From Methylococcaceae bacterium (GTDB taxonomy: Bacteria > Pseudomonadota > Gammaproteobacteria > Methylococcales > Methylomonadaceae): a stretch of DNA of 34,132 nt. Under the pieces are notes generated by a model. The model made no database searches. It was given only the letters and a program-made list of their open reading frames with translations, and was not told the origin of the DNA. This document shows positions 15,018 through 34,132 of the stretch, in pieces. The stretch lies in the NCBI GenBank assembly GCA_007280895.1, contig QYQN01000109.1:1-34132 (forward strand), in the 5' to 3' direction. How positions within the stretch are numbered: the stretch's first letter is position 1; each line of letters starts with the position of its first letter. Made by a program: the position numbers and the translations under genes.

Positions 15018-16829
15018 ATGAGTGAACAAGAAAGTACTCCACCCGCCACTAATTCGATGCTAGCTAACGTTCAGGATGCGTTAGCGAGCGAGCGAATTAT
15101 TCATCCAGCCATGAAAGGTTTGGCGCAAATGACCATTGCTAAGCAATTGGGCATTATGCTTATTCTAGCGGTAAGCATTGCCATCAGTGTGGCGGTTGTG
15201 CTGTGGTCTGATACGCCTTCTTATGCCAGATTATTTGCCGAAATTGGTCCACAAGATACCTCTGACATCATTACTTATTTAGATACCCTAGAGGTTAAAT
15301 ACAAGGTAGAACCTGGCTCTGGAGCGATCCTAGTACCAATGGACAAGGTTAATGAGCTTAAAATTAAACTTGCAGGCCAAGGTTTGCCGCGCAGTAAAAG
15401 CTTAGGCTATGAGTTACTCGATAAAGATCAAAGCATTGGCGCTAGTAAAAATGTTGAACTCATGCGTTTTCAGCGGGCACTTGAAGGTGAAATTGCCCAA
15501 ACACTCTCTTCCATTCAAAATATTAAATCTGCACGGGTATTATTAGCTTTGCCGGTGCAATCGGTTTTTATTCGTGAACGCAAAAAACCCAGCGCCTCGG
15601 TAATGGTTAATCTCTATCAAGGTCGCTCGTTAAGCAAAGAACAAATTGAATCCATCATTCACCTTGTTGCGTCTAGTGTGCCGCAATTAGAGGCTGAGCA
15701 AGTGACGGTGGTTGATCAAAAGGGACGACTCCTTAACAGCAAAGAATCCTCTTTAGGGTATTTAACTGCCAAACAATTTGATTATAAAAAAGACCTTGAA
15801 GAACATTTGATGGAACGCATTGCCAATATCATGGCACCGTTAGTGGGTGATGGTATGCGTACTCAAATTTCCGCAGATGTTGATTTTACTGAGATGGATA
15901 AAACTCAGGAAAATTTTGATCCAAAAAATACCGTGTTGCGTAGCGAACAATCTTCCGAAGAAAATAATTCTTTGCCAGGTACGCAGGGTATTCCTGGCGC
16001 CTTATCAAATCAACCCACGGCTTCAGGCGCTTCGCCACAAACCACGCCACAACAAAAACCCACCACGCCCGGTCAAAATCAGTCCAGCAGCAGTGCTAGC
16101 ACAACCCCTGCCTCGTCCTCAAAAAATGCTACAAAAAACTTTGAGGTCGATAAAACCATTACCCACACTCGCTCTGCTACAGGGCTTTTAAAACGCTTGT
16201 CGGTTGCGGTAGTGGTGGATAATAAACACTCGTTTGATGCCGAAGGCAAGCCTAAATCAGAGCCTTATAATCAAGAAGAAATTGATCGCTTTACTAACTT
16301 AGTTAAACAAGCTGTGGGGTTTGATAACGAACGTGGCGATCAAGTAACGGTCACTAATGTCGCCTTTAAAGCACCTGATGCACTGGAAGCCTTACCTGAA
16401 TTGCCGCTGTGGGAGCAGTTGTGGTTTATTGATGCAATGAAAAAATTAGCCGCTGCCTTAGCTGTATTATTCTTAATCTTTGGCGTCTTACGCCCTGCAA
16501 TGCGCCGTTTAGCAGGACGTAGTGAAGAAGAGATTAAGGCAGAAATTGTTGCTGAACATGAGGCTGAAGTCGCCAAAGAAAAAGAAATTCAAGCACAAAT
16601 GTTGGGCAGCGTTGATGCACAGGGACGCCCTGTGCAGTTTGATGAAAACGGTGTGCCTATCGCAACGCCAGCTGATGAGGATCTTTTATTACAAGCAAAT
16701 AAACAAGCCGTGGATATGTTGTTATTGGATACTCCGCAAACCTATGAAAGTCGCTTAGAATATGTAAAAAAATTAGTTGATAATGATTCACAACTGGTTG
16801 CTGAAGTCATCAAAACATGGATTAAATAA
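15018..16829 (+). CDS. fliF: Flagellar MS-ring protein FliF
   Basis: FliF forms the membrane ring on which the flagellum is built. The 603-aa protein has TM1 at about 46-63 and TM2 at about 476-492. The ring-building region between them (SYARLFAEIGPQD, GLPRSKSLGYELLDKDQSIG, ARVLLALP) is characteristic. A low-complexity Ser/Thr/Pro/Gln linker at about 315-375 is usual for the family. The cytoplasmic tail ends in LVAEVIKTWIK, the FliG-binding helix. Length is slightly above the usual 550-570. It precedes fliG, but with an atypical 267-bp gap. Confidence 0.96.
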   Translation: MSEQESTPPATNSMLANVQDALASERIIHPAMKGLAQMTIAKQLGIMLILAVSIAISVAVVLWSDTPSYARLFAEIGPQDTSDIITYLDTLEVKYKVEPGSGAILVPMDKVNELKIKLAGQGLPRSKSLGYELLDKDQSIGASKNVELMRFQRALEGEIAQTLSSIQNIKSARVLLALPVQSVFIRERKKPSASVMVNLYQGRSLSKEQIESIIHLVASSVPQLEAEQVTVVDQKGRLLNSKESSLGYLTAKQFDYKKDLEEHLMERIANIMAPLVGDGMRTQISADVDFTEMDKTQENFDPKNTVLRSEQSSEENNSLPGTQGIPGALSNQPTASGASPQTTPQQKPTTPGQNQSSSSASTTPASSSKNATKNFEVDKTITHTRSATGLLKRLSVAVVVDNKHSFDAEGKPKSEPYNQEEIDRFTNLVKQAVGFDNERGDQVTVTNVAFKAPDALEALPELPLWEQLWFIDAMKKLAAALAVLFLIFGVLRPAMRRLAGRSEEEIKAEIVAEHEAEVAKEKEIQAQMLGSVDAQGRPVQFDENGVPIATPADEDLLLQANKQAVDMLLLDTPQTYESRLEYVKKLVDNDSQLVAEVIKTWIK

Positions 16830-32405: not shown

Positions 32406-32944
32406 CTACGCCATGTGACTAAAACGTGCTCGAAGCTTCTGCAGAATAACCCAGCGCTTTGCAAACCAAGGTGGTGGCGCGTCAACTACGCATTGAAATT
32501 CTTTTAGTTGCTCCAGTGCGTCAGTGACGTCGGGAACTTTTATGGGATAAATGTCTGCACGAATCACTTTTGCAGCGGCAGGCTCACCTATTGATTGCAC
32601 GAAGACAACATGGCAATCGTTAATTAAATTAGCACGAAATAAATTTCTATCATCGCAACTGTCTGCGTCAAGTGTGGAGCTTTTATCACTTAGCGTGCAC
32701 GCGTGTCGAGATAATTAGCCAAGCCAATACCGATATCTTCACCATCTTCCTCGCCATCAAGACTACCTAAACCCGTTTTTAAGTTAGTTACGGTAATGGC
32801 TTTTAGTTTTTCATCCTCTAAAGGTGAGCCTAAGCGTTCATGTAATATTTCCAATAATTTCGGTACCGAAATGGCAGGTAAAATACGCACCGCTAAGGCA
32901 ATACGTAAAGCAAGTTCACGGGGTAATTCGGCTATTTTTTTCAC
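32406..32944 (-). pseudogene. Broken NafY/NifX-like nitrogenase cofactor protein
   Basis: Two frames together resemble one NafY-type protein. The upstream frame (32944-32690) is the N-terminal domain: ELPRELALRIALAVRILP, KLLEILHERLGSPL, and an acidic EEDGEDIGIGLANYL end. The downstream frame, shifted by one and open from 32714, is the C-terminal cofactor-binding domain: LDADSCDDRNLFRANLINDC, VVFVQSIGEPAAAKVIRADI, then PIKVPD and a PPPWFAKRW end. The segment that should join them (about 45-50 residues, including the HFGS-type loop) is absent. The gene thus has an internal deletion plus a frameshift. NafY/NifX proteins carry iron-molybdenum cofactor to nitrogenase. No other nif gene is in the window. 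The first frame overlaps the upstream gene by 29 bp. Confidence 0.7.
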
Positions 32945-33365
32945 CTTGCGCTCTCAGTAATTGACCGATAGAGAATACGGCAAGCGAAGTGACCCAAAGA
33001 CCATATCCCCACCCGTAGGATATAATCACCTCATACGTTGGTGCCTCGCTTACGATGATATTCTTGTGAAACAAGAATGAAACGGCCAATGCGAACGCAA
33101 TAAATCCAAGAGTGCTTGATCTTTGTGGTCGATTCACAAAGATTAAAGCAAGCAGAAACAGAGGATTGGCATACCAGGAGAAATGACCATCAAGAGGACC
33201 TAGCCAGCCGATCATTAAAGCTGCATATGCCATCTGCGGTTCAAATTGTTCACCGATGTAATAGGCCGGTAAGGTCAAGCAAGCCAAATAGCACAAGACA
33301 CTAATTGGCACGTGAACGTTATTGATCTTCACTGACGCATCCGATGCAAAGTTCATAATGCCCAA
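32916..33365 (-). CDS. Hypothetical four-TM membrane protein
   Basis: A 149-aa protein I cannot name. Hydrophobic segments are at about 19-36, 45-58, 66-77 (SWYANPLFLLALIF), 85-100 and 113-133, giving four or five TM helices. There is a characteristic GWLGPLDGHFSWYANPLF stretch. A charged C-terminus (RAQGEKNSRITP) reads into the start of the broken nafY-like gene with a 29-bp overlap, implying the two were an operon. The overlap suggests an ancestral link with the nif-type gene, but this is inference. Confidence 0.65.
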   Translation of the reverse strand: MGIMNFASDASVKINNVHVPISVLCYLACLTLPAYYIGEQFEPQMAYAALMIGWLGPLDGHFSWYANPLFLLALIFVNRPQRSSTLGFIAFALAVSFLFHKNIIVSEAPTYEVIISYGWGYGLWVTSLAVFSIGQLLRAQGEKNSRITP

Positions 33366-33397
33366 CGTAAATTAGACATCCTAATGGACGCAAAAAT

Positions 33398-33709
33398 CTA
33401 TACATAAACATCAAAGCCACCTGAATCTATTTTGTTTTGCTGAGTTAAATCAATGATTCTCATTTTATTAAAATCATTCTCAAGCCGTATCATTTCAAGA
33501 GAATGAGAATTCTCAATTGAGAATTTTTGTTCAGATTCAATATTTAAATTTAAATCTTCTGGTTGGTTTTTAAACGCCCCGTAAACCCTTAATAATTCTG
33601 CAACATCAAAGCCATCAGTGCTTTTGGATAGCTTTCCTTGTTTGATGTGTCGGTAAATCGTGGCAATACTTACACCAGTCAACCTACTGGCTTCTCTAAT
33701 ATCAATCAT
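33398..33709 (-). CDS. Small helix-turn-helix DNA-binding protein
   Basis: The 103-aa protein begins with a MerR/excisionase-like HTH: IREASRLTGVSIATIYRHIKQGKLSKSTDGFDVAELLRVYG (residues about 4-45). A Gln/Asn/Glu-rich helical tail follows. The same HTH form is common in plasmid- and phage-borne small regulators. The gene is AT-rich compared with its neighbours and contains six GAGAAT/ATTCTC hexamers within its own coding sequence, with two more upstream of its start; it may recognise them. It is divergent from the lipoprotein gene at 33865. Confidence 0.7.
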   Translation of the reverse strand: MIDIREASRLTGVSIATIYRHIKQGKLSKSTDGFDVAELLRVYGAFKNQPEDLNLNIESEQKFSIENSHSLEMIRLENDFNKMRIIDLTQQNKIDSGGFDVYV

Positions 33710-33724
33710 TCTTAACCTAAATCA

Positions 33725-33745
33725 TTGAGAATCAAAATTGAGAAT
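33725..33745. promoter_or_regulatory. Tandem TTGAGAAT repeats upstream of the HTH gene
   Basis: TTGAGAAT occurs at 33725-33732 and 33738-33745 (13-bp period), 16-36 bp upstream of the HTH start on the other strand. The same octamer recurs inside the gene at 33517-33524. This is a candidate autoregulatory operator. Confidence 0.45.
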
Positions 33746-33864
33746 TTTATTATAAATATTAAAGTAACCATAAAAATATTAATCCCTAACAAAATAAATT
33801 GTTGCTTAATGCCAGTACAAAAACAATTACAATTAATCTCTAATTTTAATGAGAAGGTAACAAG

Positions 33865-34132
33865 ATGAAAAAAACATTAGCCATTATATTATCGATTGTT
33901 TGTTTAATGTTCGCCGTCGGCTGTTCAGAAAAAGTAACTGATACGATACAAGAACGTGATGGATTAGCCTATCTTCCAAACGAAACTAAGCCATTTACCG
34001 GCGTATACATACTAAGCTATCTGAACCAACAAAAAAAAGAAGAAACCCATTACAAAGACGGCAAATTAGAAGGCTTGGGAATTGTCTGGTATGAAAATGG
34101 ACAGAAAAAATCAGAAGGCAATGTCAAAGACG
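33865..34132 (+). CDS. Lipoprotein with MORN-like repeats, cut by window end
   Basis: The first 89 residues are present. A lipoprotein signal peptide (MKKTLAIILSIVCLMFAVGC) has the lipobox Cys at position 20. Repeats of the MORN/YwqK type follow: YKDGKLEGLGIVWYENGQKK then SEGNVKDG. YwqK-like MORN proteins are annotated as antitoxins in some genomes, on weak grounds; here the lipid anchor points to the envelope. The start has GAGAAGG 7 nt upstream. The 3' end lies outside the window. Confidence 0.7.
   Translation, partial: MKKTLAIILSIVCLMFAVGCSEKVTDTIQERDGLAYLPNETKPFTGVYILSYLNQQKKEETHYKDGKLEGLGIVWYENGQKKSEGNVKD

Follow-up and report, generated by a model that had tools for sequence, protein, structure and literature searches.

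Gene-specific repeats at the promoter and inside the coding sequence of a Methylococcaceae helix-turn-helix gene and of a subset of its plasmid-linked relatives

Here we show that a small helix-turn-helix (HTH) gene in a 34,132-nucleotide stretch of Methylococcaceae DNA (referred to throughout as the window) is accompanied by a local cluster of GAGAAT hexamers, which fall into one block at its promoter and a second block inside its coding sequence. The motif is gene-specific, and the two-block layout is shared by a subset of the relatives of this gene, each with a sequence of its own. About a quarter of the gene groups compared carry their own repeat in both promoter and gene, which suggests built-in sites for the gene's own product. 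What appears to be new, judging from the open-access papers searched, is that a subset of a large plasmid-linked family has a second, gene-specific block within the coding sequence.

Small genes for DNA-binding proteins (DBP genes) adjoin rep on many small plasmids, including those of hospital bacteria, and the accessible parts of two reports state no function for them (PMC7031236, PMC7885321). Such genes are described as common behind repB, with no function stated in the accessible part of the source (PMC7031236), and as having been misannotated as RepA (PMC7885321, likewise in its accessible part). For those members that have one, a built-in array provides a predicted and directly testable binding sequence, and the family as a whole would offer a natural series of matched HTH/motif pairs from which the choice of DNA by such proteins could be learned. 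It would also place two codes in a single stretch, with presumed operator DNA written into the part of the protein-coding sequence that varies most freely.

Results

A local GAGAAT cluster in two blocks

The features of the window on which the analysis turns are the following.

33360–33396, minus strand: half of an integron attI-like site with the core GTTGGGC; neither the other part of the site nor an integrase gene is present here.
33398–33709, minus strand: HTH gene of 103 amino acids, with an N-terminal helix-turn-helix, a variable linker and the start of a presumed helical tail.
33409–33437, no strand assigned: 29-bp sequence, found again at 27 of 29 positions in contig C75 (377–405), where it forms the 3' end of a YdjM-like gene.
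33428–33533, minus strand: 106-base stretch identical in the same-genus genome G004 (CAJAQT010000136.1, uncultured Methylococcaceae), in which the gene has a different C-terminus.
33456–33527, minus strand: gene-internal block at +185 to +253, with six GAGAAT in both orientations, a palindrome and a 13-bp repeat.
33725–33748, minus strand: promoter block, with two TTGAGAAT whose starts lie 13 bp apart and GAGAAT at −36 and −23 from the start codon.
33865–34132, plus strand: 5' part of a lipoprotein gene with a weak match to MORN_2 (19.5 bits against a cut-off of 29.6), presumably continuing on contig C75.
GAGAAT sites: 33456–33461 (−), 33476–33481 (−), 33499–33504 (+), 33505–33510 (+), 33509–33514 (−), 33519–33524 (+), 33727–33732 (+) and 33740–33745 (+).

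All eight copies of GAGAAT or its complement ATTCTC that the preliminary description had counted within 33456–33745 are in place, two in the promoter and six in the HTH gene; relative to the start codon they lie at −36 and −23, and at +185, +195, +199, +205, +228 and +248. Seven of the eight read TGAGAAT and five read TTGAGAAT. The idea of a spreading array is not supported: the copies are gathered in two blocks with about 220 bp between them, and neither the promoter pair nor the palindrome is found elsewhere in the genome. The palindrome itself, reported at 10 bp, had been drawn too short and extends to 16 bp (ATTCTCAATTGAGAAT, 33509–33524). The promoter pair noted at 33725–33745 is present, and to it can be added that 13 bp are common to the gene-internal block, as a repeat AAAATTCTCAATT on the minus strand with a promoter copy at 33736–33748 and a gene-internal copy at 33515–33527.

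The cluster far exceeds chance, as had been claimed: across 2000 dinucleotide shuffles of 33398–33865 (468 bp), GAGAAT occurred 0.38 times on average and four times at most. This region is AT-rich (29% G+C), and when any hexamer is allowed, those of A and T only included, one of them reached eight copies per 290 bp in 151 of 2000 such shuffles; among hexamers with at least two G or C, at least eight copies per 290 bp arose in 1 of 300 locally shuffled 34-kb windows. The six sites within the gene were reached in none of 50,000 codon resamplings with the codon usage of the window and in one of 50,000 within-gene synonymous shuffles. Coding constraint and base composition do not account for the GAGAAT cluster. 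The excess is local, because the total over the whole 34-kb window, 18 in all against 12.45 expected, was reached or passed by 5 of 100 whole-window shuffles.

A genome-wide count gave 64 occurrences of TTGAGAAT in 2.86 Mb, five of them in the cluster. Allowing at most one mismatch, the promoter pair TTGAGAAT-N5-TTGAGAAT has a single occurrence in the source genome, and 2 of the 19 other genomes of the genus hold a one-mismatch match, in settings that look unrelated. The 16-bp palindrome, at the same tolerance, is found in 2 of 20 genus genomes, that of the window and G004, where the copy sits on the identical 106-bp stretch.

A plasmid-linked gene family

The protein of the window scores 26.5 bits against the HTH_17 profile, just under the cut-off of 27. 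Among curated families it matches NF038291 best (rep_pAB02_ORF2, described as a "plasmid replication DNA-binding protein"), at E 1.7e-13; the score of 51.3 bits is below the curated cut-off of 85, and the match stops at position 92 of 172, short of the full profile span. This homology, together with 775 plasmid records that match the HTH gene in a search for relatives, supports a plasmid kinship of the gene. Among the plasmid records that were opened, eight have the gene immediately after an annotated initiator and five have it after rop, and six others have no initiator annotated directly before it; six of ten alphaproteobacterial plasmid relatives follow an initiator. The initiators that relatives adjoin are of unrelated kinds, being Rep_3 (L201), RepA_C (L123) and TrfA (L112) in genomes, and RepM and replication initiator protein A on plasmids. 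None of three viral contigs with pattern matches encodes a relative. A search of solved structures returned one match at a non-significant E of 0.58, and a single-sequence structure prediction, with a mean pLDDT of 53, was too poor to use.

Across the family the HTH part, up to about residue 47–55, is alike in protein alignment, and both sequence and length vary after it. The inner block falls in this variable part behind the HTH domain, so operator DNA placed there would presumably do the protein little harm.

The gene of the window is not directly behind an initiator gene but is preceded by a 155-bp gap and the divergent lipoprotein gene, and inspection by eye of the open reading frames of the window revealed no initiator gene beside the repeats. 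Its protein departs from the same-genus relative after residue 94. Because the G004 protein continues differently past the identical bases, the gene of the window has a different tail from its relative, and the 29-bp sequence overlaps the point of divergence and provides the last codons of the HTH gene. By its sequence it looks like a plasmid-type gene, probably of plasmid origin, stranded beside half an integron site with its C-terminus replaced. It may be a relic, given the half integron site beside it, the lack of a recognised initiator nearby and the replaced tail.

Samples and comparisons

The first set held 65 genes: 51 relatives from genomes of the window's family, 13 plasmid genes and the gene of the window. 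The genome relatives came from 58 places, and the window's own place was taken from the window sequence; six places were left out, namely G143 (a C-terminal part in a long frame), G207 (21 positions) and four in G139 (partial or stop-containing). The second set comprised 33 genes, 18 from other gammaproteobacterial genomes and 15 from plasmids, ten of these alphaproteobacterial. Its genome genes were short proteins with the N-terminus matched, and long frames and partial or interrupted places were left out, as was the window. Two genes added later under the same entry rule (G588 and G271) bring it to 35 and are absent from the 98-gene and 47-cluster counts; both score 9, and one is PilZ-like by eye. 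The gammaproteobacterial plasmid genes (13 and 5) were picked by hand for spread from the 775 matching records, with L069 left out, and the ten alphaproteobacterial ones were picked by hand from 21 records. As controls we used 233 open reading frames of at least 110 codons in the same stretches, picked mechanically and thus not curated genes.

The first comparison scored, by ungapped match, the promoter (−120 to −1) against positions +100 to +330 of the same gene. Score, window of comparison and geometry were chosen on the first set and applied unchanged to the second; the two sets are not phylogenetically independent, and L225 and L228 in the second are close relatives. For a further comparison the 98 genes were grouped by their first 50 residues into 47 clusters, each represented by the member listed first, and the promoter of each representative (−60 to −1) was matched to the inner stretch (+140 to +260) of every representative.

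The two-block layout recurs with different motifs

In a subset of the 98 related genes, a promoter block at about −50 to −10 repeats some 200 bp downstream in the same orientation, with the inner copy at +150 to +240, just past the HTH-coding part. Hexamer clusters around these genes consist of a different motif in each case, among them CCGAAC (10 copies), CGTTAC (10), AGAACG (9), GTGACA (10), CCTACC (7), TGACCA (in the relative of Phaeobacter inhibens pP83_i) and GGAAAC (in that of Sulfitobacter); the motif changes from gene to gene and yet occurs in both blocks of one gene. In the clearest cases the copies are confined to the promoter and +150 to +250, as in the following two.

CCGAAC copies: −61, −51, −28, −16 and −7; +153, +159, +187, +199 and +208.
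CCTACC copies: −66, −55, −31 and −17; +151, +185 and +207.

PL_L074 departs from the two-place layout in that its copies are continuous from −56 to +238.

Matches between promoter and gene in the same orientation comprise 35 of 36 positions in L105, 24 of 24 in L097, 18 of 18 in each of L108 and L120, and, for the window, 13 of 13. In the first set, a score of at least 12 was reached by 12 of 65 HTH genes as against 2 of 233 controls, with the match reversed in L125 and the orientation kept in the other eleven; a score of at least 16 was reached by 8 of 65 against none of 233, and a hexamer count of at least seven by 10 of 65 against 1 of 233. With the settings carried over, 5 of 33 genes in the second set scored at least 12 (5 of 35 with the two added genes; Fisher p 0.0005 against the 233 controls). 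The expected geometry, with a promoter copy at −50 to −30 and an inner copy at +161 to +199 in the same orientation, was found in all six second-set genes scoring at least 11, compared with 17 of 23 in the first set and 2 of 13 among the controls. A rank test over all scores was weak in the second set (p 0.03), so the effect sits in a minority of genes.

Matching every promoter to every gene shows how specific the pairing is. Among the 47 clusters, own pairs scored at least 12 in 12 of 47, as against 2 of 2162 foreign pairs, and the own gene was the single best partner in 14 of 47, where about one would be expected. Because foreign pairs do not match, the repeat is not a conserved element of the family such as a common promoter or ribosome site. 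The window shares this gene-specific two-block layout: its promoter block is repeated within the gene in the same orientation, with an own score of 13 at −39/+182, and the best of the 46 other representatives scores 9.

Relatives without the layout

An own score of at least 11 was found in 16 of 47 clusters, and about two thirds are without a clear match. The ten relatives that share the SIPTIYRH-like helix of the window have no cluster and zero to two copies of GAGAAT each (1, 2, 1, 1, 2 and 0 in six genes of one genus; 2, 0, 0 and 0 in four of another). Four of the six have GAGAAT at −13, a position from which it could serve as a ribosome-binding site. Conservation of GAGAAT as a motif in close relatives, with these zero to two copies per gene, was judged weak and set aside.

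In the enterobacterial plasmids examined, where the gene directly follows rep or rop, a promoter block is absent and the gene contains an inner array of TGAACA/GAACAG. All six rop-type genes have TGAACA between +158 and +271, and five of them show an additional copy at −166. The excess of the inner array is modest: the three rep-type genes tested gave p 0.04–0.07, and in both rop-type genes tested another hexamer ranked above TGAACA. If this array is real, its confinement to the gene means that self-repression cannot be the whole story. A shift of specificity was considered for the trio L114, L117 and L121, in which an L-to-Q change in the recognition helix is accompanied by T-to-A changes at two sites within the gene; their promoters do not sort cleanly, and the trio was not counted as evidence.

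Several loci show other settings or arrays. In L107 (3575–5646) an HTH gene that has AGAACG blocks is followed after 84 bp by the type I restriction gene hsdM, so defence loci may have recruited some members. A shorter HTH relative is conserved in one genus (L063, L064, L124, L127 and L129–L131) and, in both loci inspected, adjoins genes identified by eye as atpI/atpB of the ATP synthase; four of five such genes have no hexamer cluster, and L130 has CAACAA five times (p 0.025). On two Klebsiella plasmids (L070 and L077), 10–11 copies of CGACTC in both orientations stand 600–790 bp past the start of the HTH gene, as an array separate from it. In L042, from a genome of the window's family, eleven copies of TGACAA lie 284–667 bp before the HTH gene.

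Genomic surroundings of the window gene

Whole integron integrases (TIGR02249, 490 bits) adjoin sites like the half-site of the window both on contig C159 and in a further genus genome. The attI-like block occurs in 10 of the 19 other genus genomes (L015, L016, L024, L030–L040), in varied chromosomal places, some with whole or cut integrase genes adjoining; its neighbours, named by eye, include argG, mutM, uvrB and dusA. We considered that the HTH gene might be an integron cassette and rejected this, for the attI-like left flank is conserved but no attC was seen by eye, and the GAGAAT cluster lies outside the flank.

Contig C75 is the presumed continuation of the window contig, with an overlap of 141 bases. 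If the two join, the 29-bp sequence forms a direct repeat that brackets about 960 bp with the HTH and lipoprotein genes. A hairpin common to C75 and G004:C136 occurs in one copy each in 2 of 6 genomes.

The preliminary description had suggested that the HTH protein might control the divergent lipoprotein gene as well as itself, and the loci compared lend this no support: as far as their sequence was fetched, all 97 other HTH loci lack that lipoprotein, and a 5' half of the lipoprotein gene is also present on contig C140, where neither the HTH gene nor the GAGAAT sites accompany it. A 98% copy of this half is at L014 (5995–6184), on a contig other than that of the window, near a transposase fragment named by eye. 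Elsewhere in the window, a gene of the nitrogenase cofactor family with a DIMCO_N domain (32406–32944, minus strand) looks, by eye, broken into two reading frames.

Discussion

A proposed function and its alternatives

Both blocks are probably binding sites of the gene's own HTH protein. The earlier proposal of an operator or iteron array for this protein survives in one part, to which the gene-specific blocks at the same two places in a subset of homologues lend indirect support, and not in the other, that the array spreads. The HTH protein is predicted to bind its own motif at both blocks. At the promoter block (−36 to −18), binding would most likely let the gene repress itself; the inner block (+185 to +253), in linker-coding DNA, would be bound by the same protein, and the tail would probably join both blocks or several DNA copies. 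Joined blocks could act as a loop or roadblock on one molecule or as a pairing platform on a plasmid, in which case the inner block could position plasmid copies. Binding, self-repression, looping or pairing and an origin from a plasmid are what we infer from the DNA and its relatives. A sigma-70-like scan found promoter-like sites on both strands (8, as against a mean of 3.4 in shuffles), a count that is not decisive in so AT-rich a stretch.

A bolder version is speculative and, in our judgement, rather doubtful: the coding sequence may carry its own recognition array, such that protein, operator and plasmid-pairing (partition or incompatibility) site make up one transferable unit of about 400 bp. 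If this were true, an array flanking the HTH-coding DNA would allow changes of motif and of recognition helix to be inherited together and, since the array stands on both sides of that DNA, new incompatibility specificities could arise within one gene.

Several other explanations compete with self-binding and self-repression. The blocks could quite possibly be a cis-acting plasmid maintenance site (for partition, pairing or copy control) for the DBP, with self-repression a by-product and the window a plasmid remnant; this overlaps with the explanation we prefer, as both require binding by the HTH protein. Relatives adjoin plasmid initiators of unrelated kinds, enterobacterial plasmids of the rep/rop-operon type show a gene-internal array only, and the repeats of StbA and KfrA are required for plasmid stability, according to the accessible parts of the reports (PMC3098194, PMC7783346). 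Against it, the first block of two-block members lies immediately ahead of the start codon, in the position expected of a promoter, and some relatives are found in other settings, before hsdM or adjoining atpI/atpB. We regard it as unlikely that the blocks are remnants of recombination or duplication, direct repeats flanking the HTH segment left where HTH modules were swapped or a promoter was copied, with no binding involved. The strongest cases are indeed near-identical direct repeats (L105 and L097 above all) at a spacing of about 190–240 bp; each block, however, holds several short copies of one motif, in some genes in both orientations, and the copies are there even where the blocks differ overall (the window, PL_L074 and L136). 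Multiple short copies are not what a single copying event would leave.

Fur boxes are built from similar hexamers, and sites of another regulator such as Fur therefore deserve mention, improbable as we hold them to be. A 15-bp stretch within the gene (33468–33482) fits a Fur-type 7-1-7 pattern at 11 of 12 fixed positions, but a distant stretch of the window (16778–16792) scores equally, no match to that pattern of at least 10 falls on the promoter pair, and relatives have quite different motifs at the same places. Chance or base composition, finally, is strongly disfavoured and ranks lowest of all. It can appeal to the low G+C content and to the shuffles in which some hexamer reaches eight copies; GAGAAT itself stays at four or fewer in them, resampled codons (for six sites) and hexamers bearing G or C (for eight) reach the target once each, and the layout is common to relatives.

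Relation to known systems

The DBP genes of Rep-3 plasmids behind repB or repM (NF038291) encode an HTH protein homologous to that of the window. Unlike these, the gene of the window scores below the family cut-off, is not behind rep and has had its C-terminus replaced. The accessible parts of the two reports on such genes (PMC7031236, PMC7885321) do not mention a two-block operator, and we found no description of a repeat block inside such a gene in the open-access literature, including the accessible parts of PMC3832669 and PMC5570271.

KfrA of the IncU plasmid RA3 represses itself via five 9-bp repeats at its promoter, in both orientations, and its binding is needed for the stability of RA3; the motif is absent elsewhere on that plasmid (PMC7783346, in its accessible part). 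KfrA-type proteins have an N-terminal HTH, a long helical tail that oligomerises and a repeat operator at their own promoter; the window gene, with an HTH just under the profile cut-off, a short presumed tail and two TTGAGAAT before its start codon, may be comparable; as far as the accessible text describes it, the KfrA repeat is confined to the promoter, with no block in the gene, and the KfrA tail is much longer. StbA of R388 acts in plasmid segregation and recognises five 9-bp repeats in each of two sets that lie around its promoter (PMC3098194, accessible part). StbA and its stbDR resemble the window in combining one DNA-binding protein, presumed in the window, with two sets of short repeats at its own gene. 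The accessible account places both sets in the promoter region, unlike the window, and a few more copies in three other promoters, with none in the gene. HTH dimers of the plasmid repressor ArdK bind direct as well as inverted repeats, according to the accessible part of PMC9723621.

KfrA and StbA are likened to the window gene as analogues, by layout and proposed function. In lac-type systems, an auxiliary second operator in transcribed coding DNA aids repression by looping. There the auxiliary operator lies in a target gene, whereas the inner block of the window lies in the coding sequence of the presumed regulator itself, beside the part that encodes its DNA-binding domain.
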